A stretch of 64,000 bases of DNA. It comes from an uncultured Gammaproteobacteria bacterium. GTDB lineage: Bacteria > Pseudomonadota > Gammaproteobacteria > Pseudomonadales > Halieaceae. Both the position numbers and the translations under genes were made by a program. The stretch spans positions 26,104-90,103 of the forward strand of contig CABYJX010000003.1 in assembly GCA_902519405.1 (NCBI GenBank), in the 5' to 3' direction. Below are positions 20,942-53,137 of this stretch, piece after piece. The first letter of the stretch is position 1. Each line of letters begins with the position of its first letter. Under the pieces are notes generated by a model. The model had not been told where the DNA came from. It was given only the letters and a program-made list of their open reading frames with translations, and did no database searches.

Positions 20942-21619
20942 CTATAACCGTTTTAATCTAAGTGCCAAAGCATGCTCGTAAAGCACCATATCCTTACGAT
21001 GAAACATCTCTATTTCTTTTTTTAACCTATCATCTATCGAGTAACTGTTTTCACGTTGATCCGGATTTATATTAGCTGAGACAAATTTTTGATTAGAACC
21101 GAACATTTCTCGTGACAAGAAGTTCATATCTTCTTCGAAAAATTCAGTTATTCCAATAAAATTGAAGCGCTTTAAGGGGAAACCCCATAAAAACTTTGAA
21201 TATATATTACGTACCTCTTCGCCAAGACAAAAACGTCTCAAACTCCACTTCTCTCGGATGAACCGTTCTCTCAGAGTTTCCTTCTTAGAAAATGACGTCT
21301 CGCGGGTCCAATAGTGATAGTGTGAAAGCAAGCGTTCCACAGGATGACGAAACCAGGTGAGGAAAAATGTATCTTCAGAGTAAATAAATCTATATTTCAA
21401 CGGCATGAAATGGCCATGTATACACTCAATATTTTTATAAACAGAGAGATTCAGCGCATTTTTGGACATAGAAAAGATTGCATCTTTCCTTTTTAAATAT
21501 TTTGATTCGTGGAGGATTTTATCCTCGTAGTCTCTTACTAACTTTGCACCATACATTTTTTCAAATAGATGCAGACATGTAGTGCCAGCGGCCTTTGGCA
21601 TATGAACAGAGATCAACAT
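20942..21619 (-). CDS. sulfotransferase family protein (PAPS-dependent, Sulfotransfer_2 type)
   Basis: A 225-residue protein with the two PAPS-binding motifs of carbohydrate sulfotransferases. The 5'-phosphosulfate loop is PKAAGTTC at residues 8-15, and the 3'-phosphate site is WFRHPVERLLSHYHYW at about 89-104. It has no signal peptide or membrane segment, so it should act in the cytoplasm, probably on a sugar acceptor. The acceptor cannot be read from the sequence. It lies 219 bases downstream of the large sulfotransferase/glycosyltransferase fusion in the same direction, which suggests a shared sulfated-glycan product. The 219-base gap contains no gene I can support. Confidence 0.78.
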   Translation of the reverse strand: MLISVHMPKAAGTTCLHLFEKMYGAKLVRDYEDKILHESKYLKRKDAIFSMSKNALNLSVYKNIECIHGHFMPLKYRFIYSEDTFFLTWFRHPVERLLSHYHYWTRETSFSKKETLRERFIREKWSLRRFCLGEEVRNIYSKFLWGFPLKRFNFIGITEFFEEDMNFLSREMFGSNQKFVSANINPDQRENSYSIDDRLKKEIEMFHRKDMVLYEHALALRLKRL

Positions 21620-21838: not shown

Positions 21839-24800
21839 TTAGGAGAGAGATGTATCACTTTTTTCTGGACTTCCGAAATCTTCTAATATAATTTTTCTTG
21901 CTACTTCCTTACCAAAATGAGACTTCAGCCACCCAGAATAATTATCTGTTAATTCTTTTACCTTTAAGGGATTTGAGTGCAGTTCAATTATTTTGCTTGC
22001 AAACTCGAAAGCATTATCTGAGACCTCCATTACTCGATCCGATCCCGGAATACCCTCCACACCAATGGAAGTAGATACTATGGGAACGTTCTGTTGCACG
22101 GACTCTATCACTTTCCCTTTAACCCCAGCCCCAAATCTTAGAGGGACAACGGCCACTTTAATCAAGGAATATCTCGTCGTTAATTCCTCATCAGATAAAA
22201 ATCCCAGGACTTCCACATTGGGCCCGTCCAATACTTCAATAGTTTCAGGAATATTTGAACCAACAATATAAAGGATCACGTCAGGAATCTGTTCTACTAC
22301 GTGCGGTAGGATATCGCGAACAAACCAGGTCATAGCATCAACGTTAGGTGGATGATTAAATCCTCCTACAAATAACAAACCCGATCTTGAACCAAAATCA
22401 TAAGTAGGCATCTTTTCTAAAGATAGCGCGTAAAGTGGTATAGCTCGGGCTCTTACTAATGGATTTTTAGATCGCACCTCCTCAACTTCTACGTTAGACG
22501 GATAGTAGGTAATATCAGTACGTTCAAAAATTTCCTGCTCACGCTTTTCCCAAGAATTTGCCTCATCTTCTAGTTTCTGGGATTTTTTAACCTGAGCTTC
22601 CCTTTTTTTTCTAAGATAGTGAAGATCGTGACCAAAATAGACTATGAGAGGTTTCGGATCTAATTTTTCAATAATATCCAAAAACTGTTCTGCGACATGT
22701 GGTCGCTGAATATAAATAACATCGATATATATGGCATTGGCCTTAAACCAAGCTTTAATATCTCGGGCAATATCCTCACCGAAAATCACTTCTACTCCTT
22801 GGCGCTGAAGGATATCTGTGTAGGGTTGATGAGGAAAGTAGTTTGCTCCCAAGAATATGACCCTGTATCCAAGCTCTATTAATAACAAAATATATTGATA
22901 AGTAGATTTCCCTCCTGCATCTTTATCAAAATGGGGGACATAATGATCTATTACTAGAATAGTTCTTTTGTTACCACTCCGCTCTCTGGCGTAGCTGATA
23001 TTCGTACCATTTTCATAGTGATTTTCTTCAAGCAAGGCTGCCCATTTTTTTCTGAAGATTTCCTTATTTCTTGACTGATATTTTTTAACTCCAGTACTTA
23101 AATCTTTACCATTTGTGACGCCCTCGTAGTGAATTACTCTGGCCTTTGGTTGATAGACTACTTTGTATCCTGCCTCTCGAATTGTAAATGCAAGATCTGT
23201 ATCCTCGTAATACGCTGGAGAAAATCGTTCATCAAAACCACCTACGCTATCCCACAATGCTTTTCTGAGCAATAAACAAGCGCCAGATATATAGTCTACC
23301 TCTTTGCAGTAATTGAATTGCGGTGCGTGTGGCGACTCGTCCCTGCCATAATTCCATCCAGATCCATCTTTCCAAATAATACCACCTGCCTCCTGCAATC
23401 TACCATTTGGAAAGACAAGCTTTGGACCCACCATTCCCACTGATGGGTCCTTTTTCAAGGTCTCAAGCAATTCAGCCAACCAACCAGCTTCTACAGACGT
23501 ATCATTATTGAGTAATACCAGAAAGCGGCTCTTTACCTCTCTGACTGCGATATTACAATTTCGTAAAAAACCTATATTACTTTTTTGATGGACTACTTTT
23601 ATCCCTTCTATTCGCTCTTCAATATTTTTGGTTAAGTCAGTTGAATGATCATCGCCTACAACGATTTGATATGAAATTTCTTTTGTATTCTCATAAATCG
23701 ACCGAAGACATGTCAAGGTAGTACTGTATTCATTGTAAACCGGCACTATGATGGTAACTTCAGGTTCCATGTGAACATCAAACTGCATCCGATAATTTTC
23801 AATCTCCGTAGCAGCTATGCTCTTCACATTAATAGACTGGTCTTGCTCGTCCTCTGGAAATCGCGAGTGGGTCCAGGTCGCTAGATTTTGAGCACTCATT
23901 CGAAAACATATTTTAAATAACTTCCCTAACCTGTTCCAACTGAGACTTCGAATAGAACTGGCCGGGTGAAGTATAATATAACGACAAATTCGAAGTATTG
24001 ACGCCAGTCGTCTGACAGGCGCCTGAGGGGGTTCAAAATCAAACTGAGTAAAGTGTTGGCTAGCTCGCATAATCAGCTCAAGATACGGCGTAGTGCGATC
24101 TCTTTGAAAACTAATAAACCTATATAAGCGACTCATAATACGACTGAGTTTTGCTTGGAAAGATGTCTCATACAGTAATAAGTTACGATAAACATCGGTC
24201 AATTCATGAAAAAGATAGTTAGCCTTATCGTCTAGATCTCGAACTTTCGCTTCTAGATCTCGAACTTTCACTTCTAGATTTTTTCTTGTCCTTACCTCTA
24301 GATGATGGGCCTCAGATAAGCTTTGATGCTCAATATTTAGAGATGAATATTTGGCCTCTAGCTCCTCATTATTTTTTTTGTCCAGCTGGTACGCTCGTCC
24401 GAGATCCATGTGATCACTTTCAAGTACCTTATAATGGCTAAGCAAATCAGTATGTTTTTCTTTCTCTGCCTCGTGCGCTAACGCAAGTTCTTTCTGGTCA
24501 TTTTCAAGCGTCTTGTAGTGTGCCAGTAAATCAGTATGTTTCTCCTTCTCTGCCTCGTGCGCATTGACCAATGCCACATACCTGCTTTCCTGAGATTTTA
24601 GCTCTGAAAAAACATGATCGCGCTCCTCTGACACCTCATCTAATCGATTAAGATTCTCCAGAGCTTTTGAAAGCGGCGCTAATGTTTGAGAAAAATCTTG
24701 TATTCGTGCACCTAAAGCGGGATCTACTCGTAGTGATTCATGGTGATCACTTTTAGATATTTTACTCCTTGCACTAAGAAGATTAAGGTAGTTCTCCACA

Positions 24801-25507
24801 GAGATCTGAGAAGGCGTCATTATTTTCTCAATATCTTCTTCTTGAGAAATTTTAGAAGTAACCAAAGATGGACTAAATGCGGCAAGGGCGCCGGTCAAAT
24901 CTGCATCAGATTTTTCTAAAACACCTAATTTTATTAGTCCCTGATACAACAGTTTAATCTCATGTTCAGGATCGAGAATAAAATGATCATAAGAGAGGAA
25001 TAAGCTGTCGCCTGGGTTTGGAAACGCGGCTAGATACTGACGGTTATAGTATTCCCAGAGATCCAATCCAAAACTAATTGGAAACTCATGCCGATTTCTA
25101 AGTGATTGTGCCACGGCTAGCGGAGATCTATAAATTATTATAGGTACAACGCTATCGAGCACCTCCTTCCATAGGGGCCAGGTTAATAAAAATCGGGGGT
25201 CTTTAATTAGCCAACGTGACCCACTGGAGGATAGCATCTCCAAGATAGACATCATACTCGACGTATAATCTCTTTCGAAAGAGGAAGTAGGTGGGTTAAA
25301 CCAACTTCCCCCAGCCTCCTCTAGGATTAAATCGTTTAGCTGAACAACATCTCGACGTTCCCAGAACCCCTTAGGATTATCTACTTGCGGTTCTAAAAGT
25401 TCTTCAGCCTTGCCAGCATAGAACCCAAGCTTAGTCAGCACATCAGCTAGCATGGATGTGCCAGATCGATGCATACCTAATACAGCGATATTTTTTTTCT
25501 TTATCAA
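21839..25507 (-). CDS. giant fusion: sulfotransferase - coiled coil - GT2 - GT4 glycosyltransferase
   Basis: A 1222-residue protein with four parts. Residues 1 to about 215 are a sulfotransferase-like P-loop domain (GMHRSGTS at 11-18; YRSPLAVAQSLRNR at 126-139). Residues about 285-440 are a coiled coil with internal repeats. Residues about 583-800 are a GT-A family 2 glycosyltransferase: TIIVPVYNE at 585-593, DDHSTD at 619-624, the NND nucleotide-sugar site at 667-669, and the EDTD acid at 768-771. Residues about 847-1215 are a GT-B family 4 domain, with FVGGF at 1046-1050 and FGAGVKGKVIE at 1125-1135. All four motif sets look intact. The start appears to be TTG. It probably builds and sulfates a surface polysaccharide; substrates are unknown. 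GT2-GT4 fusions are known from capsule and O-antigen loci, and the sulfotransferase head is the unusual part. Confidence 0.85.
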   Translation of the reverse strand: MIKKKNIAVLGMHRSGTSMLADVLTKLGFYAGKAEELLEPQVDNPKGFWERRDVVQLNDLILEEAGGSWFNPPTSSFERDYTSSMMSILEMLSSSGSRWLIKDPRFLLTWPLWKEVLDSVVPIIIYRSPLAVAQSLRNRHEFPISFGLDLWEYYNRQYLAAFPNPGDSLFLSYDHFILDPEHEIKLLYQGLIKLGVLEKSDADLTGALAAFSPSLVTSKISQEEDIEKIMTPSQISVENYLNLLSARSKISKSDHHESLRVDPALGARIQDFSQTLAPLSKALENLNRLDEVSEERDHVFSELKSQESRYVALVNAHEAEKEKHTDLLAHYKTLENDQKELALAHEAEKEKHTDLLSHYKVLESDHMDLGRAYQLDKKNNEELEAKYSSLNIEHQSLSEAHHLEVRTRKNLEVKVRDLEAKVRDLDDKANYLFHELTDVYRNLLLYETSFQAKLSRIMSRLYRFISFQRDRTTPYLELIMRASQHFTQFDFEPPQAPVRRLASILRICRYIILHPASSIRSLSWNRLGKLFKICFRMSAQNLATWTHSRFPEDEQDQSINVKSIAATEIENYRMQFDVHMEPEVTIIVPVYNEYSTTLTCLRSIYENTKEISYQIVVGDDHSTDLTKNIEERIEGIKVVHQKSNIGFLRNCNIAVREVKSRFLVLLNNDTSVEAGWLAELLETLKKDPSVGMVGPKLVFPNGRLQEAGGIIWKDGSGWNYGRDESPHAPQFNYCKEVDYISGACLLLRKALWDSVGGFDERFSPAYYEDTDLAFTIREAGYKVVYQPKARVIHYEGVTNGKDLSTGVKKYQSRNKEIFRKKWAALLEENHYENGTNISYARERSGNKRTILVIDHYVPHFDKDAGGKSTYQYILLLIELGYRVIFLGANYFPHQPYTDILQRQGVEVIFGEDIARDIKAWFKANAIYIDVIYIQRPHVAEQFLDIIEKLDPKPLIVYFGHDLHYLRKKREAQVKKSQKLEDEANSWEKREQEIFERTDITYYPSNVEVEEVRSKNPLVRARAIPLYALSLEKMPTYDFGSRSGLLFVGGFNHPPNVDAMTWFVRDILPHVVEQIPDVILYIVGSNIPETIEVLDGPNVEVLGFLSDEELTTRYSLIKVAVVPLRFGAGVKGKVIESVQQNVPIVSTSIGVEGIPGSDRVMEVSDNAFEFASKIIELHSNPLKVKELTDNYSGWLKSHFGKEVARKIILEDFGSPEKSDTSLS
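24233..24277 (-). repeat. two 21-base in-frame repeats in coiled coil
   Basis: Two nearly identical 21-base units encode the heptads LEVKVRD and LEAKVRD, followed by a degenerate third (LDDKANY). A seven-residue repeat is a clean coiled-coil register. The near identity at the DNA level indicates recent slippage or duplication rather than old divergence. Confidence 0.7.
24416..24559 (-). repeat. 81-base in-frame tandem repeat in coiled coil
   Basis: Residues 317-337 and 344-364 of the fusion protein are almost the same: AHEAEKEKHTDLL, then A/S, HYK, T/V, LE and N/S-D. The period is 27 residues (81 bases), with high DNA identity between copies. The period is one residue short of four heptads, so the second copy shifts coiled-coil register. 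Confidence 0.75.
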
Positions 25508-25558: not shown

Positions 25559-26449
25559 TTAATAGGCATTTATCACTTTCTTTAACGCCTTTGGATAAAT
25601 TTTCGTATTCTCTCCTAGCGAAAATGTATCTCGGTACTGAGCTAATTTCGCTTGCTTATACTCTTGTTCCAGTTGTTTAATGAGGCCTTTCTTCATTTCA
25701 TTGAATGGTCGATATCCTTCTCTAATTCTATCCAGTCGAATAATGTGAACTCCGAATTTACTCAACACAATTTTTGAATAATCACCCACCTTTTCGATAG
25801 AATATAGGCCTTTGACATATTCTCTAACGAACCTGTTATCTAAACGCTCTATCCAAGCCTCTATTTTTCCTTTGTTATTTCTGCTTCCAGGGTCATTCGA
25901 ATATTCTATTACGAGCGCTTCAAAATTTTCACCGGAAACGAGTCGCTCACGCAATTTACGTCCTTCGGCAATTTTGTCCATCGGATCACAAGCTTCGTTG
26001 CATGAGAGAAGAATATGCGAAGATTGACGACCTTCTGGAATTTTCGCGATTTTATCTTTATTTCCATCATATCTCTCGCGGGCTAATTTCGAAAAATTAG
26101 GCATCTTAAGATCATTTAGAAATTTTTTTTCCATAAAAGTTAAACGGGCTGTTTGTAACGATAACACTAGCCTCCAATAGTCGAACCCATCTTCATCATA
26201 CGATAATGTCTCAGCTTCTGCGGCGATTCGCTTATTTTTGATTACCTCATTTAAAAACTCCCAAGTTGCCTCGGGACCACCTTGTTTGAGTTGCTCAATA
26301 ATATCCGGATGTAAGGTATCTAGAAGAGCCTCAAGTTCGATATCACTTATAGTAGTATCCCCATCTTCGACCACCGATGATGCAACGGTTGGTAGCGCTA
26401 AAAATAGCCAAAGATAAGCAACGCAACAAAGAATTGAAATTTCTCTCAT
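25559..26449 (-). CDS. periplasmic parvulin-type peptidyl-prolyl isomerase
   Basis: A 296-residue exported protein. A signal peptide (ISILCCVAYLWLFLALPTVAS) is followed by a helical region. The rotamase domain is at about residues 145-245, beginning QSSHILLSC and including FEALVIEYSNDPGSRNNKG and the final FGVHIIRLD motif typical of PpiC/SurA parvulins. The C-terminal 45 residues are charged and helical. It probably helps fold or protect exported proteins in the periplasm. It is directly downstream of the gene for the 634-residue exported protein, separated by a strong terminator, so it needs its own promoter or read-through. SurA is unlikely, since only one parvulin domain is present. Confidence 0.85.
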   Translation of the reverse strand: MREISILCCVAYLWLFLALPTVASSVVEDGDTTISDIELEALLDTLHPDIIEQLKQGGPEATWEFLNEVIKNKRIAAEAETLSYDEDGFDYWRLVLSLQTARLTFMEKKFLNDLKMPNFSKLARERYDGNKDKIAKIPEGRQSSHILLSCNEACDPMDKIAEGRKLRERLVSGENFEALVIEYSNDPGSRNNKGKIEAWIERLDNRFVREYVKGLYSIEKVGDYSKIVLSKFGVHIIRLDRIREGYRPFNEMKKGLIKQLEQEYKQAKLAQYRDTFSLGENTKIYPKALKKVINAY

Positions 26450-26538: not shown

Positions 26539-28443
26539 TTACCAACCACCAGACGATTGTCCGTATGAGTGGTCGATTGCTCGTCCAAAGTTCATGGCAG
26601 CATCAGCTGTAATATTACGCTCCCATACTGCGAAGCCAACTACCGGCGCTTTAGTGTTCTGCCACCCTGTTGGGGCCGCACCCTTACCGCTAACACCGTT
26701 CTGACCAGTAGGACTAGGGAAGAAAAGCTCCCTGTCAGAGGTTTGCGCAGTGAAGGCCATATTAGCCCAACCACTTTCAGCTCCAGTCAACGCCCAGTTT
26801 GCAACGAGAACGCTACTATTAAGCACGCCCAATCCTGCACCCTGACCAGCATCGTGTGTAGAGCCACCAAATGAAAGCACGTTCACTTCATTTGATAACG
26901 ACTTAGCTGCTGGAGTTGCAGCCGAGGCACAGTCATCAGTAGATGGCGATACTGTAATACCACCAGCGGCACAGGAAGATACCTCACTAGTCTCGCTAGT
27001 TTCTTCCCTATCATACATAGTCATGGTGTATGTGAGAGGCAAGTCGTCAGCACTGGACTTAGTCTGGTTAGTTGCTGCGATGGTTCCAGAAGCGTTACTT
27101 GGAGGCAATGGCCGCCAATCCTGCATCACGTACTGACCAGGCAGAGTCACGACCCAATCGGTAGTAACTGTACGGGTAGTACTGGAAACAGCAGCCCACT
27201 CATTCTTGAGCGCCTCTTTACCCCACAAGTTGTTAGCGCGGAGCTTAGAGAACTTACCGAACAAGTTCTGACTTGCTGTTATTAGGCTGTCTGAACAGAG
27301 TGCGCCAAGACCAACACCACCTCTTGTGGTAACAGTGGTATTGTCTCTAGTCTCACATACTGAATCAGCTGCAGCACTTCCGTCTGCGATTGTTGTTCCT
27401 GCGCCCCAAGGACCACCGTCAAGGTTCGGCAATTCAAAGTTAAGAGGGTCAAACTGAATTGCACCATCTTGCTTAATGATCTTTTCCTGGTTTGTCATCA
27501 TTGGGGAGTCAGCAAACTTGCTAATGTGAGCCGCGTCACCACCAAATTCCAACGCTCTTGCGGTATCTCTGACGAACCATGAAACTTTCAACGCCTCATC
27601 TGGAGTATCGGTCCAGGTGGTCAAAGTTCCACCTGTTACACCATCTGCAGTTTCGTCGAAGTCACACGTACCGTAACCACCAGTTGCCTTAGAGGTGTTA
27701 TCGCCACAGTATCGCTGGTTGGCAGCAGTGTTCTCACTAGTATCAGTATTCATGTTTCGATAGAAATTCTTCTCTACAGTCGCACAATCTAGTGGAACTC
27801 CTTTAGCGTGCTTGGCATTTTTTCCAACAGCAGTAGTCTGTGCCGCTTCGCCCATACCGATAATCTCTACGTAACCCTCACGGGCATCAGTGGAATCAGG
27901 CATAGTAAATGTCTTATTACCGCTGGCATCAGCAGCCGCATTAGGAACGGTACATGAAGTGTCGCTAGTGCTGACAATGACACTGCCAGAAGCATCGGCG
28001 TGAATAGCACCTGCCCACACATCCGCTGGAGACATCACGACGTTAAAGTCGAGTGCATCAGCAGAATCCGTGGCACGTCTGAGACGTACTTTAACGGCCT
28101 GTGTCGCTGCTGTAGTGTTCACAATGTGCACACCAGTTACAAAAGTTCCTACAGTTGTGTAGTAAGGGACAATTGCCGCATCGCCACGAACGTTATAAGC
28201 ACTTAACGTACCAGCTTCACCACGCGCCTGACAAGTTGCCTGAAGTTCACCTGGGTCACCGGCAGGGGTAAGGGCCGGACAATCGCCGGAGGCCTGACTT
28301 GCCGCGTTTGTGTTGTCGTTAGACTCGAATACATCGAGGTTATTACCCGATGCAGCTGCACCGTATACTTGCACTGTACCAACCATGGTGGCCGTTGCGC
28401 CAGCAACGCCAATGGCAAGTCCAATCTTTCTAAAGTTACTCAT
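26539..28443 (-). CDS. large exported Ala/Thr/Asp-rich protein of unknown family
   Basis: I do not recognise this 634-residue protein. Residues 1 to about 30 form a signal peptide (FRKIGLAIGVAGATATMVG) with a likely cleavage after VYGAA or nearby. No further membrane segment is evident. The mature part is rich in Ala, Thr, Ser, Asp and Gly and contains about a dozen Cys. It ends SYGQSSGGW, not the Phe-terminated strand of an outer-membrane barrel. Base composition is clearly higher in G+C than its neighbours (bases 26641..26700 are 37 of 60 G+C). With the AGGAG site and strong terminator, this suggests high expression. It lies between a periplasmic foldase and a type II secretion operon, so it could be an abundant surface-layer or secreted protein. 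No adhesin, S-layer homology or enzyme motif is visible. Confidence 0.8.
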   Translation of the reverse strand: MSNFRKIGLAIGVAGATATMVGTVQVYGAAASGNNLDVFESNDNTNAASQASGDCPALTPAGDPGELQATCQARGEAGTLSAYNVRGDAAIVPYYTTVGTFVTGVHIVNTTAATQAVKVRLRRATDSADALDFNVVMSPADVWAGAIHADASGSVIVSTSDTSCTVPNAAADASGNKTFTMPDSTDAREGYVEIIGMGEAAQTTAVGKNAKHAKGVPLDCATVEKNFYRNMNTDTSENTAANQRYCGDNTSKATGGYGTCDFDETADGVTGGTLTTWTDTPDEALKVSWFVRDTARALEFGGDAAHISKFADSPMMTNQEKIIKQDGAIQFDPLNFELPNLDGGPWGAGTTIADGSAAADSVCETRDNTTVTTRGGVGLGALCSDSLITASQNLFGKFSKLRANNLWGKEALKNEWAAVSSTTRTVTTDWVVTLPGQYVMQDWRPLPPSNASGTIAATNQTKSSADDLPLTYTMTMYDREETSETSEVSSCAAGGITVSPSTDDCASAATPAAKSLSNEVNVLSFGGSTHDAGQGAGLGVLNSSVLVANWALTGAESGWANMAFTAQTSDRELFFPSPTGQNGVSGKGAAPTGWQNTKAPVVGFAVWERNITADAAMNFGRAIDHSYGQSSGGW

Positions 28444-28991: not shown

Positions 28992-29267
28992 TTATATATA
29001 CTTTTTATCTGAAGATCTGGTTTGTGTTAAACTATAAATCATCGTTCCTGAGTAAAACGTCGTTAATTTTGCCAAAGCCATATCCATAAAAAAAGAAAAG
29101 GTAGTAACAAGCAAAACGATCTTATGTTGGTAGCTTGATGTATCATGGTACTCAACACTAAATCTCATCTGAATACTGCCGGCAGAGTCAAATAACGATA
29201 GATACATCCTGAAAGCCTTACTGACCCTAAAATCTAATAGAAACGTGAAAATTACCAATATAGTCAT
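28992..29267 (-). CDS. possible 91-residue hydrophobic protein overlapping the end of gspD
   Basis: An open frame whose ATG overlaps the gspD stop by four bases (ATGA), the arrangement of translational coupling. The product has two hydrophobic stretches (TILVIFTFLLDF and IVLLVTTFSFFMDMALA) but no family signature I recognise. Codon use is AT-rich and the residue mix is not convincing. If it is not real, 28968..29263 (296 bases) is an empty stretch after the secretion operon. It may be the remnant of a former last gene of the operon. Confidence 0.3.
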   Translation of the reverse strand: MTILVIFTFLLDFRVSKAFRMYLSLFDSAGSIQMRFSVEYHDTSSYQHKIVLLVTTFSFFMDMALAKLTTFYSGTMIYSLTQTRSSDKKYI

Positions 29268-31396
29268 TTTTCTATCAATTTCATTTCTCTAACTCGAGCA
29301 CGCATATCTTTACTGACCTCTCTTAGCTGGTTGTCATCATACAATGCTCTAGGGGTGATAATCACGACGAGCTCTGTGCGGATACCAGATTTAATGCCTT
29401 TACCAAAAGCCGCTCCCAAAACAGGAATCTTGTGAAGCCAAGGAACACCCTCTCCACTTTTTGACGCATTGTCGCGAATGAGTCCACCCAACACCACAGA
29501 CTCGCCAGAGCGAACCGAGACCTTACTCTGAATCTCTCGGTTCATGAAACTACGCTGCCCAGTAGCAGCATCCTCTAACCCTACGTCAGTAACCGATTGA
29601 GAAACCTCCATCGTTACCAAACCTCCAGCGTTTACAGAGGGGGTCACTGTTAACTGAACACCAGTATCCCTATACTCAATACTCTGGATAGAATTACCCC
29701 CATCCGTAAAAGCGGTCCCCGTAAGGATAGGCACTTGGTCACCCACCTGAATAGTAGCCGTGCTATTGTCTAGCACCATGACGGAGGGAGAAGAGATCAC
29801 GTTAACCAATGATTCACTTGACAGCATATTTAACACACCACTGATCCCTCCACTGGAATTTGCGACGGTATAATTAAAACCGGGGTAGGTACCGGATGGA
29901 GTTCCGGAAGAACTCAAACCACCGAAACCTGAATAATCAGAGCCACCCAGCCCCCCACTTCTGAAGGCCCATTCCAATCCGTATCGTAATTTATCCGTGA
30001 GCGTGACTTCCAAAATACTGGCCTCAATCAAAATCTGTGTGGCGGCTACGTCGAGTTTTTCTAACGCCGCCTCTATCTTTCGAAACTGCATCCCAGTGGA
30101 GTAAATCATTAACGAGTTATTTTCCTCATCTGCTACCACACGCACATCGTCGATAATTGAATTATAATTAGCGCTGTTAGACACAACCGAGACACCCTCT
30201 GCAGCTGCAGCACTCTGTCCTGTTCCAATATTCTCGGGTTTCATCCCTGGAGCAACTCCACCATTGCTACTCCCTCTTCGCCCATTTCCACTGGAGGAAC
30301 TGGTAGCACCGCGAGAATATATTTTTGTCAAAAGTACTGCCAAGCGCTCCGACGTCGTATTCTGAACGGGGTAGACGTAAAGCCTTTTTTCACCAAAACT
30401 TGTCTCCGGATTATCAAGTCTCTCTATCCACTTGCGTACGGTATCTAGATAGTGAGCCCTGGGAGTAACCACGAGAATACTTGCAAGGCGAGCAAACGGT
30501 ATAATTCTGACCATCGGCGCGAGGTCTTCGACCATTTCTTGACTACCTGTCATACCCGACTTTGCATCCGATCCCGAGGACTTTCCCAACAAAACATTTA
30601 GTGCTTCGGCCGTCTCTTCTACCCCACTATTTCGAATGGGGAATAATCCAACCGACATTCCCGCCATTCGATCCACATCGAATGTTTGTACTATATCTAA
30701 CCAGCCTGAGAGCTGCGCACGGGTTCCTGCCAACATCAATAAGTTTCGAACATTATCCACGCGTACAAAAGCTGTTTCGTCAGCTAGAGGCCTAAGAATC
30801 TCTTCCATATCTGAGGCGCCAATATATTCCAACGAGACGATGACGGTGCTGTAACCGGCATCTGCGTCCTTTGGATTGCCCACCGATGGATAAAGCTTAG
30901 ATCCTCGTCCGGACTCTGTTATCAAATATCTGTTGTCCTCATCTTTGATCATCATAACGCCATTGGCGTTTAGTAGGGATTCCAACACAAACAGCAATTT
31001 ACTCCTTGAGATCGGTGCCTTTGTTCTCAAAGTGACGTTGCCACTAACAGACCCATCCACCACGTAATCTAACTTCAAAATATCAGACATCACCGCATGC
31101 ATCACCTCAGCAAGAGGTGCATTTTCAAAATTAAGTGACACATCGTCTCCCACAAATTGGAGAGGACTTCGAACCTCGGGCATTTTAATCTGTCTGTCAG
31201 TACCCATGTAGATAATAGGTTGATCCTTTCTATCTTTTGTCGACTCCAACTCTTTGACTAGCGATACGGAATTTCTATTTCCCACTTTCCTGTCCAAGAG
31301 AACATTCTCCGATTCACCTTGAAGTAAATTCGAACAGCCACTACACGCCAGATTAACGACCAAGAACAGCCAACAACTACGGCCTATAAAATTCAT
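29264..31396 (-). CDS. gspD: type II secretion system secretin GspD, lipoprotein type
   Basis: The outer-membrane channel of the type II secretion system. Residues about 1-21 are a signal ending in a lipobox (ACSGC, Cys21), so this is a liposecretin. The N0 domain (LNFENAPLAEVMHAVM) and N1-N3 domains (ASDMEEILRPL, then ETAEALNVLLGKS, then SERLAVLLTKIY) follow. The secretin core includes VGDQVPILTG, VLGGLIRD and the closing VPWLHKIPVLGAAFG...LVVIITPRAL. A Gly/Ser/Asn-rich stretch in the N3 region (about 360-400) is normal for the family. It is the last canonical gene of the operon. A lipid anchor would let the secretin reach the outer membrane without a separate pilotin (inference, by analogy with HxcQ of Pseudomonas). 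Confidence 0.95.
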   Translation of the reverse strand: MNFIGRSCWLFLVVNLACSGCSNLLQGESENVLLDRKVGNRNSVSLVKELESTKDRKDQPIIYMGTDRQIKMPEVRSPLQFVGDDVSLNFENAPLAEVMHAVMSDILKLDYVVDGSVSGNVTLRTKAPISRSKLLFVLESLLNANGVMMIKDEDNRYLITESGRGSKLYPSVGNPKDADAGYSTVIVSLEYIGASDMEEILRPLADETAFVRVDNVRNLLMLAGTRAQLSGWLDIVQTFDVDRMAGMSVGLFPIRNSGVEETAEALNVLLGKSSGSDAKSGMTGSQEMVEDLAPMVRIIPFARLASILVVTPRAHYLDTVRKWIERLDNPETSFGEKRLYVYPVQNTTSERLAVLLTKIYSRGATSSSSGNGRRGSSNGGVAPGMKPENIGTGQSAAAAEGVSVVSNSANYNSIIDDVRVVADEENNSLMIYSTGMQFRKIEAALEKLDVAATQILIEASILEVTLTDKLRYGLEWAFRSGGLGGSDYSGFGGLSSSGTPSGTYPGFNYTVANSSGGISGVLNMLSSESLVNVISSPSVMVLDNSTATIQVGDQVPILTGTAFTDGGNSIQSIEYRDTGVQLTVTPSVNAGGLVTMEVSQSVTDVGLEDAATGQRSFMNREIQSKVSVRSGESVVLGGLIRDNASKSGEGVPWLHKIPVLGAAFGKGIKSGIRTELVVIITPRALYDDNQLREVSKDMRARVREMKLIEK

Positions 31397-31415
31397 AAAA
31401 TATTCCCTGAGTTCA

Positions 31416-32078
31416 TTATTTAGCCCAACTACCGACAGTTATTTCACTTACAAAGTTACTTTTTTTACGACAGATACTGGGATCCATTTTACAGGCGAGT
31501 GGATTGGCTCGTCTAAGATGACGATCATCTTTGTGGGATCCATATGTGAATACCACCTTCTCCTCATCTACCTCAGATAACGTCCAGCCATCGAGTATAG
31601 ACTCTCCTATTAAAAGGCGAACTTCCTTACCATCCATATTAAGAATCGCCCCACCTGTATCACCTCCACCAAAAATTCCCACTACATTCACGTGCTGCGA
31701 TATCTTTTTGGGAGGCTTTGGTGCTGCGGCTACCACTTTTGGTTTAGGACTTTGTTTTTCTTCTACTACTTGTGGCTTTGGCTCTAAATCGATAGCCTCT
31801 CGTTTTCGCGTTTCCCAAAACAAAGGCCTCTCAATCAACTCTCGCAATAAATCGGGAGAGATGTCAGCATTGTCGACGGCGCTTATCACCTCCAAAATTT
31901 CGGACAGAGGAGGCTTTGGTTTTGGCGAGGAATCAGCAAAAATTTGAAAAGCTCCAACTATTATCTGTATACACAAAATTGCTAAAAAAAAGATCAGACA
32001 CAGCTCAATGCGACGCTCGAAACAAAGAGGTGCATCTTTAACACGATATCTCTCTAAAACAATATCAATTGAAATCAC
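31416..32078 (-). CDS. gspC: type II secretion system protein GspC (XpsN-like, no PDZ domain)
   Basis: The inner-membrane clamp linking the secretin to the inner-membrane platform. One membrane helix lies at about residues 27-48 (IFFLAILCIQIIVGAF). A Pro/Lys-rich linker (about 95-130) leads to the homology-region domain, VNVVGIFGGGDTGGAILNMDGKEVRLLIGESI. It ends at 220 residues after a short tail with two Cys (LACKMDPSIC), without PDZ or coiled-coil domain. This matches the XpsN/GspC type located just before gspD. It overlaps gspM by four bases and precedes gspD by 19. Confidence 0.82.
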   Translation of the reverse strand: MISIDIVLERYRVKDAPLCFERRIELCLIFFLAILCIQIIVGAFQIFADSSPKPKPPLSEILEVISAVDNADISPDLLRELIERPLFWETRKREAIDLEPKPQVVEEKQSPKPKVVAAAPKPPKKISQHVNVVGIFGGGDTGGAILNMDGKEVRLLIGESILDGWTLSEVDEEKVVFTYGSHKDDRHLRRANPLACKMDPSICRKKSNFVSEITVGSWAK

Positions 32079-32641
32079 TGAACCACCCTAAGCGAGGTTA
32101 GTTTGAATCTTGCCGTCACGGTCTGCCGATAGTTAGTTTGAGCAGCACTCTTTCTACGATTGGGATAAACATTTAATGACTCTATCAATACTAACGGGCG
32201 ATAGGCATCTAACCCTGTCAAAGCAAGATCTAATTCTTGAATAGTACCTACGGAAGTTACATTCAAGCCAATAAGATCAAATCTTCCTTCTCTCCGTATT
32301 TTTTGTAACTGACTATTAGATACAGTCAATCCTGCTTCTATCATAATTCTTCTCAACTCCGCTTGAAGAGCCGCTGAAATAACAGACTCCTGCTCCGTAG
32401 ACGGATAAACAAGTGATTTACTTCCATCACTAACTATCAAAAGCGATTCCTTCATCTTCTCCTCAGACTCAATGAGCCCAAGCAGTCGAGAAATTCTGGG
32501 AGTTATATTCGCTATTTCATCTCGCGATTCTATAGAATGCCCTACTAGAATAGTGGCTAAATGGATAAATGCATATATCGGCAATAAAAAAGTAAACGCA
32601 ATTACCAATGCATCTTTGCGGTAAAAACGAACCCACCTCAT
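32075..32641 (-). CDS. gspM: type II secretion system protein GspM
   Basis: A 188-residue inner-membrane protein with one N-terminal helix (ALVIAFTFLLPIYAFIHLATILVG). A short coiled region and a ferredoxin-like periplasmic domain (about 85-185) follow, as in GspM/PilO-type platform proteins. Identification rests mainly on topology and position between gspL and gspC, since sequence conservation in this family is low. Four-base overlaps on both sides indicate translational coupling. Confidence 0.8.
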   Translation of the reverse strand: MRWVRFYRKDALVIAFTFLLPIYAFIHLATILVGHSIESRDEIANITPRISRLLGLIESEEKMKESLLIVSDGSKSLVYPSTEQESVISAALQAELRRIMIEAGLTVSNSQLQKIRREGRFDLIGLNVTSVGTIQELDLALTGLDAYRPLVLIESLNVYPNRRKSAAQTNYRQTVTARFKLTSLRVVQ

Positions 32642-33657
32642 CGTACGGCCTCATCCTGGATTTCGATATCTAGATTAAACTGCTCCATTCCAGAGTTCCC
32701 TAGCCGGATAATTGCTTGAGGTGCCGTGACGTTTGCGTAATTCTTCTCGTCAGCCAGCTGTCGCATGAGCTTTGCCGCATCTTTAGATTTTCCCCGGAGA
32801 CGAATTTGATTACCTGTTATTCTAAACTCTTGCAAAAAGGCGTCGTCACCCAAGAGCGCGGTCAGTTGCACTAATTGCGCTCGCGGGCTCGGATACTTAC
32901 TCATGAGATCATTCACCGCGTTAACGGTGCGGTTTGCCTCACCAAGCCTTTTACGAAAAACCATCGCCCTTGATGCCTGCTCTCTGACCAACTTTTCTTC
33001 GTTATGTAACTGATCTAATCTAATCTTTTTAACAGCGGCATCGATCCCAATAGAAAGCAACACTCCAGTAAAAAGGAAAAAAGTTAACATAGAGACACGA
33101 ATCAATCTGCGGGTATAACGAGACATACGCAACCTCTCTCCAAAACCTTGAAAGACTACCCAGTGTCCATCTACTCGTGCCCACACCTCGGCTTGGGTTA
33201 AATCTAAAGCATCATACCTAGATCGCAGATAGTCATTGATATCTGAATTGGAAGCAAGAGCCAATCTGACAATAAATTGCCCTGTATCAGACAGTTCACG
33301 CATCCATCCCCAGCTAGTGTCTTCTTGAGCAAATGGGCTACTCGCTATAACCTCATTAACTAGAATAGTTTTAAGCTCTCCCAAACTCATGATTGGTAAA
33401 ATCAGTTTTCTTTCCAAGAATAAAGAATCCGGAAGAGCAATAGCTTCTAGGTCTGCCCCCCCTTCATCGACCTTATTACCGGATTGGTAAATTTCAATAC
33501 TGCTCTCTGAAATTAATTTAATTTTTTCGTCGAAAGGCTTCCTAATGGGAGAATCTTCTCCCCAGAGAAACTCAGTCCAAGACGCTTTCCAGACGCGCAC
33601 AAACTCGCGAGTGTCAATACCAAAAAGCATCCAGTTTTGATTTTTTACCGCCATCAA
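32638..33657 (-). CDS. gspL: type II secretion system protein GspL
   Basis: A 339-residue bitopic protein joining the cytoplasmic ATPase GspE to the platform. The cytoplasmic actin-like part (about 1-190) has the conserved LPIMSLGELKTILVNEVIASSPF stretch, in which most of the family's recognisable sequence lies. One membrane helix follows at about 195-215 (VSMLTFFLFTGVLLSIGI). The periplasmic ferredoxin-like domain ends near 335. It is at the short end of the family (about 340-400). Start is TTG or ATG at 33657/33654. It lies 16 bases after gspK and overlaps gspM. Confidence 0.85.
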   Translation of the reverse strand: MMAVKNQNWMLFGIDTREFVRVWKASWTEFLWGEDSPIRKPFDEKIKLISESSIEIYQSGNKVDEGGADLEAIALPDSLFLERKLILPIMSLGELKTILVNEVIASSPFAQEDTSWGWMRELSDTGQFIVRLALASNSDINDYLRSRYDALDLTQAEVWARVDGHWVVFQGFGERLRMSRYTRRLIRVSMLTFFLFTGVLLSIGIDAAVKKIRLDQLHNEEKLVREQASRAMVFRKRLGEANRTVNAVNDLMSKYPSPRAQLVQLTALLGDDAFLQEFRITGNQIRLRGKSKDAAKLMRQLADEKNYANVTAPQAIIRLGNSGMEQFNLDIEIQDEAVR

Positions 33658-33673
33658 TCTTCCTTATCCTTTA

Positions 33674-34519
33674 TCAAAGCGCTTGGTCAAGATATATTCT
33701 GGCAGGCTCAACACGCCAAGATTTCCACCTAATGGCGGAACCCGTCCTCGCGCCTCGCTTGATCCATTGCCGGCGCAGCCATTTCTTGCCCGAATGTTCT
33801 ATTATTGCATCTACTCTCAGGCTTCGACTAGATGACAAAAGTACGGTATCCAGAGGGACTAGATTAAGTTCCTCTTCGGTGAAACGATTTGCTTCTATCA
33901 AAATATCTTTTATAAATCGCGGCATAAAAATACTGGGGGGCTCACCTCTATTTTGTGTTACAGGACCAACATATATATGATCTCGAAAAGCATCATATAT
34001 TCTCCTATCCACCCCTGGTGCCAAGAGGATATCCTCTAATGTCCTTAGAACGGAATCACGTCTGCCCTCAGACTTCAATTCGTTTCTCCAAGAGCCAATA
34101 TCTGCAGAAACAGTCTCGGCCTCTAGTACGTTAATCCCCCGCTTCATTAGAAGGTTCTGGAGAACATCAACAGATACGGTTCGAAGATTGAGTAACGCTT
34201 CGCTAGGTAGTGCCGTTAGGACTACTCGTTTGAAACCCACCTGATAGGTATTAGAATGCTCCAAAATAAATTGACCGTCAGATTCCTCTTCCCTAATCAG
34301 ATCTGCTAGAAATAATAGCGTAGCTCCATCTCCAGCGGCCACAGCTACTGATTGTGCTGCATGAACCTGGGCAAGCTTCAGATCGACTCTCGCGTGCGAG
34401 ACAATCCCTGCCACCAGTAAGGACATCGCAGCAACAAACCAGAGCACTAGTGCTAAGGCTATCCCATGTTCATATCTGAGATTTCTCAACCACTTACCCT
34501 CATAACTAGATCGGGCCAA
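33674..34519 (-). CDS. gspK: type II secretion minor pseudopilin GspK
   Basis: A tip pseudopilin, 281 residues. The N-terminal hydrophobic helix EHGIALALVLWFVAAMSLLVAGI follows a short basic leader, and residues 18-19 (HG before IALAL) fit a prepilin peptidase site. The globular region includes the helix-rich insert typical of GspK (LLAPGVDRRIYDAF, and later FTEEELNLVPLDTVLL, a SAM-like fold). GspK lacks the canonical Glu5 in most species; the corresponding residue here is also not Glu. It starts inside the end of gspJ (34-base overlap). Confidence 0.85.
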   Translation of the reverse strand: MARSSYEGKWLRNLRYEHGIALALVLWFVAAMSLLVAGIVSHARVDLKLAQVHAAQSVAVAAGDGATLLFLADLIREEESDGQFILEHSNTYQVGFKRVVLTALPSEALLNLRTVSVDVLQNLLMKRGINVLEAETVSADIGSWRNELKSEGRRDSVLRTLEDILLAPGVDRRIYDAFRDHIYVGPVTQNRGEPPSIFMPRFIKDILIEANRFTEEELNLVPLDTVLLSSSRSLRVDAIIEHSGKKWLRRQWIKRGARTGSAIRWKSWRVEPARIYLDQAL

Positions 34520-35115
34520 TATCTCTGAGAGGAGCGAATTACAAATTTGACTTTATCAGGGATATTTCCAGAGCTATTCCAGACATTTCTCCACTTTCCA
34601 TCAACTTGAGACCAACAACTCATATTAAAAATTTCAAGATTTTCTACGAGCACTCGAGATGGTTTGTTTTGCCATTTGTCTGGCGTGCGACTATCGGCCA
34701 GCTGCCACTGCAGAAATAACTTATTTTCCGTCTCATAAACTCTAAAAAAATAACTACCCCCGTAATCCTCACCAAATTTAGCTGTTGAACGCCATTCCAC
34801 TTCGGAGCGCCCTTTCATCAGAAAATAACCTCCGTCGACGCCACCTCCGTCTCCTGATCCAAGAGTCATTGTACTCATTTCAGAGACAACTGTTCCTGCA
34901 AAAGCATTACGCAAAAAAGTACTAACAGCTCGAATTTCATCTACTCGACTAATAACGCGCTGTAATGAGTTTTGTGTATTGCCGAAGGTTCGCAACGCAC
35001 TGACAGTCGCAGAGAGGATGAGAGTCATTAGTGTAATTGCAATTAACACTTCAACTAGGGTGAATCCCTTTTGCGCGGAGTCTCCCGATATGATGGAGGA
35101 CTGAATTTCAGACAT
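34486..35115 (-). CDS. gspJ: type II secretion minor pseudopilin GspJ
   Basis: A 209-residue type IV pilin-like protein. The leader ends AQKG and the mature part starts FTLVEVLIAITLMTLIL, a classic prepilin peptidase site with Glu5. The body is a single beta-rich domain with the LFLQWQLAD and NLEIFNMSCW strands, and the length fits GspJ. It follows gspI without a gap (35115/35116). GspJ joins GspI and GspK at the pseudopilus tip. Confidence 0.88.
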   Translation of the reverse strand: MSEIQSSIISGDSAQKGFTLVEVLIAITLMTLILSATVSALRTFGNTQNSLQRVISRVDEIRAVSTFLRNAFAGTVVSEMSTMTLGSGDGGGVDGGYFLMKGRSEVEWRSTAKFGEDYGGSYFFRVYETENKLFLQWQLADSRTPDKWQNKPSRVLVENLEIFNMSCWSQVDGKWRNVWNSSGNIPDKVKFVIRSSQRYWPDLVMRVSG

Positions 35116-35541
35116 TTAGGGAATAATCTCTTCTTGAAAAGTTCGAGTTCGAACGCCCTCAACAACTGACGATAATTCAAACTTCCTTTCCCGCCGCCCA
35201 TCAATCCAACCGACCTCAATATCAATACTCTGGATTGCTCCAGGAAATAGAATATCAAATGGAATATCAATCGGTGATGCAGCCACCTTCCAAGAAAAAC
35301 CACCCTCTGTCTCCCCTTTCCAACTACCACCCTCCGTAGGTACTTGGCCATATTCAACTAGTAAAGATCTAGCAAGCTCAACACTAAATACATAGCGCTC
35401 GTCGGTTCTTACATTGCGAGTCGCACCGGAGACCGCCTGATAAAGCACTCCTAAAGTCATTGATAAGATGGAAAGCGCAACCAACATTTCTAATAAAGAA
35501 AAACCGCAATGACGTATTTTTGATGGAAAATTAGTCCACAT
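35116..35541 (-). CDS. gspI: type II secretion minor pseudopilin GspI
   Basis: A 141-residue protein with a prepilin signature: a basic leader ending CG, then FSLLEMLVALSILSMTLGVLYQ with Glu5. The remainder is a short beta domain. Position between gspH and gspJ and the small size give the assignment. The start overlaps the end of gspH by 11 bases. Confidence 0.88.
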   Translation of the reverse strand: MWTNFPSKIRHCGFSLLEMLVALSILSMTLGVLYQAVSGATRNVRTDERYVFSVELARSLLVEYGQVPTEGGSWKGETEGGFSWKVAASPIDIPFDILFPGAIQSIDIEVGWIDGRRERKFELSSVVEGVRTRTFQEEIIP

Positions 35542-35989
35542 TTAATAGACTCTGACTAACCCGACCTAAAAGCCAATCTACCGTTAGTCTTACCCCTCTG
35601 GATTTTCCAATGATATCGATCTGTCCACCACTACTATCCCCTTGTGGGTAAAATCTTATTACTCCCAAGCCGTTCTGGTTCACTTCACGCGCTGTCTTTC
35701 CAGATAAATTTACTGACTCTGGAAAAACAACAAAATTATCTTTCAAGGAAACTTTTCTGGTTTTCAAATCAAAAACCACATCCTGAGAGACACCAGTCAC
35801 AATGGCGGCATAACGAGCAGATACCAACAGTGAAATCGTTTCTCTGATAGCAGATCTGTACTGCATACCCTCGTAGAATCGAGAGCCATAGGGAACTGAC
35901 GCGACCAGCAACATGGATACAATAACTAAAACTATCAAAAGCTCTAGGAGAGAAAAACCTCGTTCTCTTGAAGTTGAGCAAACTTTCAT
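35531..35989 (-). CDS. gspH: type II secretion minor pseudopilin GspH
   Basis: A 152-residue pseudopilin with the peptidase site RG/FSLLELLIVLVIVSMLL and Glu5, followed by the ETISLLVSARYAAIVTG helix and beta strands typical of GspH. It lies 52 bases after gspG. Overlap with gspI suggests coupled translation. Confidence 0.88.
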   Translation of the reverse strand: MKVCSTSRERGFSLLELLIVLVIVSMLLVASVPYGSRFYEGMQYRSAIRETISLLVSARYAAIVTGVSQDVVFDLKTRKVSLKDNFVVFPESVNLSGKTAREVNQNGLGVIRFYPQGDSSGGQIDIIGKSRGVRLTVDWLLGRVSQSLLNVD

Positions 35990-36041
35990 ACTTGGCCTGC
36001 CTAGCGCCTCCTGTAATTTCAGTTATGACTCCGAAAAATTT

Positions 36042-36479
36042 CTAATTCCAATTCTTAATATCAGTATCTTCTTTGTCTCCACCGGGCGTTCCATTTTTTC
36101 CATAGCTTGTAATATCGAATTCCGCATGCTCACCCGGAAACTTGTAAAAATATTCCTTTTTCCAGGGGTCCTTGGGTATATCACCCTTCAAGTAGGGCCC
36201 ATTCCAACCATCTGCGCCACTGGGTTTTTTAATCAATGCTTCAAGACCATCCATAGTGGACGGATAATTACCAACATCCAGACTATACATCTCTAGGGCT
36301 TGCTCAAAGTCCTTTATTTGGATCATTGCGGTTTTACTTTTAGCACCTCCTAATTGATTTAAAACTTGCGGACCAACCAGACTCATTAGTAATCCCATTA
36401 TGGCCAAAACTACTAACAGTTCTAGAAGTGAAAATCCCAGCTGGCGCCGCTGAGGGCCGGTGTACCGAATTTTAATCAT
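36042..36479 (-). CDS. gspG: type II secretion major pseudopilin GspG
   Basis: The main subunit of the pseudopilus, 145 residues. The leader ends QLG, followed by FSLLELLVVLAIMGLLMSLVGP. The conserved GspG C-terminal part is clear: DVGNYPSTMDGLEALI, WNGPYLKGDIPKDPWK and the calcium-site loop region FDITSYGKNGTPGG. Complete and standard length. Confidence 0.96.
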   Translation of the reverse strand: MIKIRYTGPQRRQLGFSLLELLVVLAIMGLLMSLVGPQVLNQLGGAKSKTAMIQIKDFEQALEMYSLDVGNYPSTMDGLEALIKKPSGADGWNGPYLKGDIPKDPWKKEYFYKFPGEHAEFDITSYGKNGTPGGDKEDTDIKNWN

Positions 36480-36525
36480 GAGTTATTTCCCTTTCTAAAA
36501 TACTTCAAATACTTCGACGCATAAA

Positions 36526-37725
36526 TCAGATTGCCAAATCATTTACAGACATAATTCCCATCAAGATAGCAATAATAATAGACGCGATCATAGCGCCCAT
36601 CATAAGGATCAATACTGGCTCCAAGAAAGCGAGGCCTCTTTTAACTCCAGATTGGACATGATCATCAAAAACTTTAGCCAACTCGAGCATCATTTTATCT
36701 AAGTTACCGGACTCCTCGCCAACACGAATCATTTGTATGACCATGGGAGTAAAGAGTTTATTTTGATCTAATGCAGCAGAAATCCGCTGTCCCGCCTTAA
36801 CCGTTGGACCCAGTACCTGGAGGGATTCTCGAATAATTTGATTGTCTACTGTATCGACTGATATGGAAATTGCTTTTAACATCGATACCCCATTCACTAA
36901 TAACGTGCCCAGCGCACGAGCAAATTTTGCGATCTCAAACTCAAACAAAATATTCCCAATTAGCGGCAGCTCTAACAACTTACGATGGAGGGTTTCTCTA
37001 CCTTGATCACCGGCCAGCCATTGCTTTAAAATCCAGCCCATAGCAAACATCAAAAAAAGCAGGAGCCAACCCCAGGAGGCCATAAAATCTCCTAGATTAA
37101 TTACTACTCTGGTTATCGCTGGCAAAGCCTCTCCCATGTCTGCAAAAAGGGCTTCAAATTGAGGCACCACAAAACCCAGCATAAAGGCAACCGAAAGTAC
37201 GGCAACAAATAACAAGATGGCCGGATAAATCAGAGCAGAAACAACCGTATCCCGATTAGCTTTGGCTTGCTCGAGATATTCTACCAAACGATCAAGTATC
37301 TCGGACATTTGTCCACTAGCTTCTCCTGCACGAATCATACTGATATAAAATCCACCAAAGGTGTCTTGATAGTTTTCAAGAGATACGCTGAGAGACTTCC
37401 CGCCTTTCACCGACTTCAATAGATCACTTAGAAGAAAACGGCTTGTCGGTTGATTTGCCATATCTATGAGTACTTTCAGCGATTTATCCAAAGGTAGGCC
37501 CGCTCTGAGCATGACCGCGAGCTCTGTGGTGAAAGATAATAATTCTGCTCTGCTTAAAACACCACTAGCTTCATCGAGCTCTTGCTCTGAATCTTCCTGC
37601 AGTTTTAGTAGTGTCAGTCCCTGCGCGCGCAAATGTGTCGCCACAAACTCGGGTCCAGGGGCATCGATAACCCCATCGCGTGGCTTTCCATCCTGACCGA
37701 TTGCTTTATAGTGAAACTCAGCCAC
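36526..37725 (-). CDS. gspF: type II secretion inner-membrane platform protein GspF
   Basis: A polytopic platform protein with two homologous cytoplasmic domains of the T2SSF family. The first has the GLPLDKSLKVLIDMA stretch, the second the GVSMLKAISISVDTV stretch, and three membrane helices lie around 165-190, 220-240 and 370-395. The signature FGGFYISMIRAGEASGQMSEIL is intact. The frame is open back to 37773, inside gspE. I prefer the GTG at 37725 because the protein then begins with the family-typical (M)AEFHYKAIGQDG and clears the gspE stop by ten bases. Confidence 0.93.
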   Translation of the reverse strand: MAEFHYKAIGQDGKPRDGVIDAPGPEFVATHLRAQGLTLLKLQEDSEQELDEASGVLSRAELLSFTTELAVMLRAGLPLDKSLKVLIDMANQPTSRFLLSDLLKSVKGGKSLSVSLENYQDTFGGFYISMIRAGEASGQMSEILDRLVEYLEQAKANRDTVVSALIYPAILLFVAVLSVAFMLGFVVPQFEALFADMGEALPAITRVVINLGDFMASWGWLLLFLMFAMGWILKQWLAGDQGRETLHRKLLELPLIGNILFEFEIAKFARALGTLLVNGVSMLKAISISVDTVDNQIIRESLQVLGPTVKAGQRISAALDQNKLFTPMVIQMIRVGEESGNLDKMMLELAKVFDDHVQSGVKRGLAFLEPVLILMMGAMIASIIIAILMGIMSVNDLAI

Positions 37726-37735
37726 TTTGCTTAAC

Positions 37736-40399: not shown

Positions 40400-40417
40400 A
40401 GTTTGCTCCCTAATTAG

Positions 40418-41608: not shown

Positions 41609-41611
41609 CTA

Positions 41612-42760: not shown

Positions 42761-42765
42761 AAAGT

Positions 42766-43653: not shown

Positions 43654-43660
43654 AAAAAAT

Positions 43661-44809: not shown

Positions 44810-44818
44810 ATTAATCTC

Positions 44819-47035: not shown

Positions 47036-47036
47036 A

Positions 47037-47801: not shown

Positions 47802-47818
47802 AAACGGTTCGCCCTCCT

Positions 47819-49684: not shown

Positions 49685-49693
49685 AAAACGCTC

Positions 49694-50566: not shown

Positions 50567-50588
50567 TCAAAGATCCTTTTACCTGTAC

Positions 50589-50631
50589 TGAATCTAACTG
50601 ATGAATATAATAATTTTGAATTTTAGATTCA
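50589..50631. repeat. inverted repeat upstream of ipdA, possible operator or leader hairpin
   Basis: Perfect nine-base arms TGAATCTAA (50589..50597) and TTAGATTCA (50623..50631) are separated by 25 bases, 23-65 bases in front of the ipdA start. It does not match the KstR2 motif AnCAAGnnCTTGnT. It could be a two-site operator for an unknown regulator or an RNA hairpin. No T run follows, so it is not a terminator. Confidence 0.4.
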
Positions 50632-50728
50632 TCGTCAATTCCTACTATCAACATCACAGGGATTGAAACACTGGTTCATCCATGAAATCCATTCCCCTAA
50701 TGAAATAGTTATATGACAGAAACACAGT

Positions 50729-52312: not shown

Positions 52313-52380
52313 TTACGTTACTCGATAACACTCAACTAATATCAAAGACAAAATCCTGAGGAAGACCAAAAGCATAGATC

Positions 52381-53103: not shown

Positions 53104-53137
53104 GGGTTCATCAAATACTTGGGCTTATTGACTCTCT

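Follow-up and report, generated by a model that had tools for sequence, protein, structure and literature searches.

The window analysed here is a 64,000-nucleotide stretch of contig CABYJX010000003.1 (assembly GCA_902519405.1, positions 26,104 to 90,103) from an uncultured gammaproteobacterium of the family Halieaceae. The gene under study encodes a protein in which a sulfotransferase (ST) domain is followed by a coiled coil and two glycosyltransferase (GT) domains, of families GT2 and GT4. It lies in the neighbourhood of a type II secretion system (T2SS) and of a predicted surface-layer (S-layer) protein of the NpdA family, for which its product may build a sulfated glycan. The protein is composed as follows:

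21839..25507, minus strand: ST-coiled coil-GT2-GT4 protein, 1,222 amino acids, TTG start, single open frame
24728..25507, minus strand: ST domain, residues 1-260, with the 5'-phosphosulfate-binding motif GMHRSGTS and with R127 and S135 of the 3'-phosphate site
24167..24715, minus strand: coiled coil, residues 265-447 (AlphaFold2 helices 265-359 and 369-447)
24395..24562, minus strand: two 84-nucleotide (28-residue) repeats of the coil (24479-24562 and 24395-24478)
24231..24272, minus strand: tandem 21-nucleotide (7-residue) repeat within the coil
23828..24160, minus strand: basic amphipathic linker, residues 450-560 (17 Lys/Arg against 8 Asp/Glu)
22973..23827, minus strand: GT2 domain (GT-A fold), residues 561-845, with D619/D620, NND667-669 and ED768/769
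21842..22972, minus strand: GT4 domain (GT-B fold), residues 846-1222

Domains and motifs of the fusion protein

Pfam recognised Sulfotransfer_3 (PF13469) at residues 7-189 (8.6e-9; 36.4 bits against a curated cut-off of 27), GT2 at 585-753 (2e-21) and GT4 (PF13692) at 1043-1179 (1.9e-18; 67.5 bits), the last two also above their curated cut-offs. The two phosphosulfate-binding motifs of the head (G11, HRSGTS13-18, R127 and S135) are invariant in 20 of 20 aligned sequences, and R127 and S135 align with residues of CurM and SULT enzymes. When a profile of 20 such heads was compared with the PDB, the matches were mainly to sulfotransferases (CurM at 1.2e-5, SULT1A1 and tyrosylprotein sulfotransferases), the remaining names being weak matches, partly to proteins of the sulfotransferase fold. 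The N-terminal head is, by its predicted activity, a sulfotransferase of the type that uses 3'-phosphoadenosine 5'-phosphosulfate (PAPS); the assignment of its fold rests on sequence, the structural match list being filled by the GT domains and holding no ST entries.

The AlphaFold2 model contains a confident N-terminal alpha/beta domain, the long helices of the coil, a helical linker and two GT domains. As observed by VIA-align of this model, residues 556-846 (GT-A-like) match polypeptide N-acetylgalactosaminyltransferases (GalNAc-Ts; Z about 23) and residues 846-1195 (GT-B-like) match family GT4 enzymes (Z about 24). The 28-residue repeat of the coil corresponds to four heptads, its copies at residues 316 and 344 being 71% identical. 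The linker, whose highest amphipathic moment falls at residues 449-466, is a possible membrane-binding or docking element, and no transmembrane segment was detected in the protein. The GT2 domain keeps D619/D620, D669 and E768/D769. In the GT4 domain the EX7E motif reads A1127-x7-E1135, the first Glu being replaced by Ala and the second invariant; the motif with both Glu residues is common in GT4, yet it is no condition of family membership.

A preliminary description of this sequence had reported a 1,222-residue chain with ST motifs, a repeat-bearing coiled coil and GTs of two different folds, and on this both Pfam and AlphaFold2 agree, with the 28-residue repeat and the 7-residue tandem repeat both found. 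It had also pointed to a second ST gene starting at 20942, which is indeed present. Two sources of error that it had considered were dismissed: a kinase-like or other P-loop head is ruled out by the PAPS motifs together with the sulfotransferase matches in the PDB, and a fusion created by misassembly or by a frame error is ruled out by the existence of full-length homologues.

The S-layer locus

The gene sits in a predicted S-layer locus, a context that the preliminary description had missed. The neighbouring genes are:

20942..21619, minus strand: second ST-like gene, 225 amino acids, HMPKAAGTT motif, own Pfam matches below cut-off
25559..26449, minus strand: PpiC-type peptidyl-prolyl isomerase (PPIase), a conserved NpdA neighbour
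26539..28443, minus strand: NpdA-family S-layer protein, secreted, 634 amino acids
28536..28967, minus strand: small lipoprotein-like protein with an invariant N-terminal Cys, conserved between gspD and npdA
29264..39484, minus strand: operon for type II secretion (Pfam for GspD, T2SSF and T2SSE; sequence and gene order for the remaining genes)

The same order (T2SS genes, lipoprotein, NpdA-family protein, PPIase, ST-coil-GT2-GT4 enzyme, second ST) was found in many Halieaceae genera, and the second ST gene has orthologues in the equivalent locus of other genera. By sequence, the 634-residue secreted protein is a predicted member of the NpdA family, assigned by way of a Comamonas odontotermitis homologue and not by the P. 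citrulli sequence itself. A Halieaceae homologue (L040) matches a "cell surface protein" of C. odontotermitis (25% over 72%, 2e-11) whose gene lies between an upstream gsp cluster and a downstream PPIase gene; C. odontotermitis and several Halieaceae genera, with Congregibacter litoralis and Haliea salexigens as cultured examples, are listed as npdA carriers, with a conserved gsp neighbourhood (PMC10765051). The AlphaFold2 model of the surface protein was poor (pLDDT 40), its sole beta-rich region lying at about residues 89-230.

The linkage between npdA and the sulfotransferase was surveyed in a sample of 120 Halieaceae genomes, 65 of which had matches to the NpdA profile and 74 to the ST profile. 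An ST of the same family was located at most 6 kb from 38 of the 48 near-full npdA genes; 26 of these linked STs lie in long open reading frames of the fused size and 12 in frames of the split size. Five of the ten exceptions lie at contig ends and one is a second copy; in G013 and G682 the npdA gene is accompanied by other STs, and the remaining two are copies in G683. In G013 and G682, members of one genus, the slot in the npdA locus (L127, L128) holds sulfotransferases only, without GT2-GT4.

Most loci carry further ST-like genes (e.g. L036, L039, L061, L066 and L069), several of them recognised solely by a P-loop motif near the N-terminus. In G014 the separate ST of the npdA locus is immediately followed by a sulfatase-fold protein (L044:3722-6313; PF00884, 4e-20), which may act in remodelling or resemble a phosphoethanolamine transferase. 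Another locus (L121, in G296) has several NpdA-like proteins of 700-900 amino acids and an A5-type ST in one stretch, which suggests a paralogous expansion. On the far side of the T2SS, positions 39614-54766 of the window are occupied by short-chain dehydrogenases, acyl-CoA dehydrogenases and AMP-binding enzymes, and part of this block also adjoins split ST/GT genes in L068.

Fused and split homologues

A full-length copy, 68% identical, is present in another Halieaceae assembly. The order ST-coil-GT2-GT4 recurs across Halieaceae and elsewhere in Gammaproteobacteria, either fused or split into ST-coil and GT2-GT4, and the ST-GT fusion is old. Within Halieaceae three forms were distinguished: A, the fused type of the window; B, fused and divergent; and C, split into an ST-coil protein (about 400 amino acids) and then a GT2-GT4 protein (about 730). 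In one locus of form A (L034; G033:C1:3139329-3140398), otherwise complete, the ST part is found in two frames (111 + 1,375 amino acids) owing to a frameshift or sequencing error. The distance between the P-loop and the GT2 domain ranges from 473 to 611 residues among the homologues, and this variation arises in the coil. Phage matches are confined to the GT modules, with identities of at most 32% among the matches listed. In other genomes the architecture also occurs away from any detected npdA (L032, L035, L038, L042 and L089-L091).

On a GspD tree of 17 loci, forms A, B and C switch six times while the slot stays occupied, indicating that the slot is maintained while its occupant is exchanged. 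The coupling of sugar transfer with sulfation, as first suggested in the preliminary description, is well supported: ST-coil and GT2-GT4 occur either within one protein, in two divergent versions, or in adjacent genes that fill the same slot.

npdA loci outside Halieaceae and exchange of the head

Wzm and Wzt were found in seven of the 15 npdA-profile loci from genomes outside Halieaceae. The npdA locus of C. odontotermitis contains Wzm, Wzt with a Wzt_C domain and then a 1,236-residue methyltransferase-GT2-GT4 protein. L114 has Wzm and Wzt beside PPIase and NpdA, together with a coil-GT2-GT4 protein that is truncated by the edge of the locus and whose head Pfam did not identify. A single locus, L123, which comes from the same taxonomic order as the window, comprises Wzm, Wzt with Wzt_C, small STs, a lipoprotein, NpdA, PPIase, ST-coil and GT2-GT4. 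In L123 Wzt_C occurs with the ST form, in L093 and L109 with methyltransferase forms.

A tree of the GT2-GT4 modules joins the enzymes of Comamonas and L114 with the ST-linked split form C as sister groups (support 1.0) and puts the fused form A close to enzymes headed by a methyltransferase, one of which (L093) is beside Wzm/Wzt_C. These placements indicate that ST and methyltransferase heads have been exchanged on homologous GT2-GT4 modules. A plasmid enzyme of Pseudodesulfovibrio (L129:5312-8941) joins a methyltransferase head to GT2-GT4 by a long repetitive coil, which a Pfam match to Bactofilin overlaps; the polysaccharide cluster in which it lies includes a sulfotransferase.

A proposed role in the synthesis of a sulfated lipopolysaccharide

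The modifying head and the polymerase GTs are located at opposite ends of the coiled coil, as in known proteins of the terminator-coil-polymerase layout. ORF6 of Klebsiella pneumoniae O7, which has been characterised, connects a methyltransferase-kinase head through a coiled coil to two GT modules; in the O9a/O3 and O12 systems the terminator is at the distal end of a coiled-coil protein whose coil is the ruler, and the caps known for this class are methyl, phosphomethyl and Kdo (3-deoxy-D-manno-oct-2-ulosonic acid), sulfate being unmentioned (PMC11231755). Self-assembly of NpdA in Delftia requires lipopolysaccharide (LPS), as reported by Engelhardt et al. in the account given of their work in PMC3110197, and in Aeromonas salmonicida wzm and wzt of the O-antigen cluster, which also holds wbbB, flank an S-layer gene and a T2SS (PMC4483657). 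On the strength of the analogy to O7 ORF6, of the LPS requirement in Delftia and of the A. salmonicida cluster, we tentatively propose, with doubt still slightly outweighing confidence, that the window protein is an O-polysaccharide-type polymerase with an ST in the terminator position, making a sulfated LPS chain for the NpdA S-layer.

According to this proposal, the GT2 and GT4 modules would build a sugar chain at the membrane, where the soluble protein would be held, perhaps through its basic amphipathic linker. The coiled coil would place the sulfotransferase at the far end, away from the GT modules, and there it would add sulfate to the end at which the chain grows, most likely the non-reducing one, and thereby cap it, much as the methyltransferase or Kdo-transferase heads of WbdD, WbbB and O7 ORF6 do. 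The sulfated glycan would serve the neighbouring NpdA S-layer, most likely as an LPS chain on which NpdA assembles after export, presumably through the adjacent T2SS. The data show the architecture, the motifs, their conservation, the linkage to npdA and the exchange of ST and methyltransferase heads; we infer the sulfate cap, the length of the coil as ruler, LPS as carrier, the acceptor, the exporter in Halieaceae and the S-layer function. Held more tentatively than the proposal as a whole is its most specific part, namely that sulfation acts as a chain-terminating cap in place of a methyltransferase or Kdo-transferase terminator and that the sulfate-capped LPS is a dedicated assembly partner of NpdA. 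If true, NpdA loci would be combined S-layer and O-polysaccharide loci, the ST head would be a new terminating chemistry for the control of glycan length, and the NpdA S-layer family would be tied to a specific glycan pathway from the same locus. Such a tie would offer a direct genetic test of what anchors NpdA S-layers, along with a source of single-protein enzymes for sulfated glycans.

Several results weigh against this proposal. No Wzm or Wzt adjoins the window gene or is present in most Halieaceae loci of this arrangement, L044 being an exception in which both are present with a GT2-GT4 gene adjoining. Wzt_C is absent genome-wide from G004, G015, G019, G021, G022 and G024, all 91-99% complete and carrying the fused enzyme, in a search that did not cover Wzt lacking that domain; G015 carries the locus yet has neither a Wzt_C nor a Wza match. 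The window's own genome (60% complete) has no match to Wzt_C, Wza or adenosine 5'-phosphosulfate (APS) kinase. The preliminary description had called for a check of PAPS supply: a search of 34 genomes for APS kinase (cysC) gave matches in 32, both genus-mates included. Its view of a glycan "made by few genes" was not supported. The relative placement of the domains is not predicted by AlphaFold2, the pTM of the full protein being low (0.38). After correction for GspD distance, divergence of the surface protein showed no correlation with the form of the enzyme (p = 0.30; PPIase control 0.48), and no assayed enzyme of the ST-coil-GT2-GT4 architecture was found in the literature. Finally, sulfation of internal residues would fit the sequence equally well.

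This last scenario, in which pathway and S-layer link are the same but the ST decorates internal sugars of the repeat unit and the coil is a mere tether with no capping, is rather unlikely. The additional ST genes at most loci suggest several sulfated positions, and marine capsules with sulfated repeat units have been described (PMC11641403, PMC11766843); the extra STs could, however, serve the internal positions and leave the window ST as the terminator, and a head placed N-terminally beyond the coil, with methyltransferase heads on homologous GT2-GT4 modules, is a hallmark of terminators.

Somewhat less probable still is protein glycosylation, in which a sulfated glycan would be built in the cytosol on NpdA itself or on a different exported protein, ahead of export by Sec and the T2SS. 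The gene lies beside npdA, its product is without a transmembrane segment, and the G015 result speaks for this reading as well; NpdA moreover runs at >150 kDa versus the expected 52 kDa, which its authors read as an oligomer (PMC10765051). The GT2 domain is structurally nearest to polypeptide GalNAc-Ts and also matches MftF, but the likeness to GalNAc-Ts comes from the GT-A fold that they have in common, and chondroitin polymerase matches as well. Against this explanation, too, homologous modules adjoin Wzm/Wzt in many genomes, npdA loci included. That the enzyme serves an unrelated capsule or exopolysaccharide, its npdA/T2SS neighbourhood being conserved synteny only, is very improbable: the loci away from a detected npdA agree with it, but the slot was kept filled with ST and GT modules through the six form changes, extra STs accumulate there, and npdA is linked to a polymerase in Comamonas and further lineages as well.

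Comparison with known systems

No ST-GT fusion or ST terminator is described in the open-access literature searched (subscription papers being outside its scope); the layout itself has a precedent in the methyltransferase-headed terminator-coil-GT-GT protein characterised in K. pneumoniae O7 (PMC11231755). Compared by layout and not by sequence, O7 ORF6 and the window protein both have an N-terminal modifying head, a central coil and two C-terminal GTs in one chain, and similar layouts occur in ABC-dependent O-antigen loci. They differ in that ORF6 has a methyltransferase-kinase head and a carbohydrate-binding module and both its GTs are GT2, whereas the window protein has an ST head with GT2 and GT4, and its gene is without adjoining Wzm/Wzt.

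As in the NpdA loci of Paracidovorax and Delftia (PMC10765051, PMC3110197), the S-layer gene directly adjoins gsp genes; glycan genes beside npdA are unmentioned in the main text of PMC10765051, whereas here ST and GT modules are in the locus. The vapA/sps A-layer and wbsalmo locus of A. salmonicida (PMC4483657) likewise brings together a T2SS, an S-layer gene, the O-antigen polymerase gene wbbB and a small ST-domain open reading frame. Its S-layer protein is a different one, its WbbB is not headed by a sulfotransferase, and no sulfate is known in its O-antigen.

In WbdD/WbdA of Escherichia coli O9a and K. pneumoniae O3/O5 and in WbbB of K. pneumoniae O12, the cap is methyl, phosphomethyl or Kdo and the head enzymes belong to families other than that of the window ST. 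They resemble the window protein in that a coiled-coil ruler separates terminator from polymerase, and in that split and fused versions both exist, as they do for ST-coil and GT2-GT4. The split of ST-coil from GT2-GT4 mirrors that of WbdD from WbdA, which supports the reading of the window protein as an O-polysaccharide polymerase.

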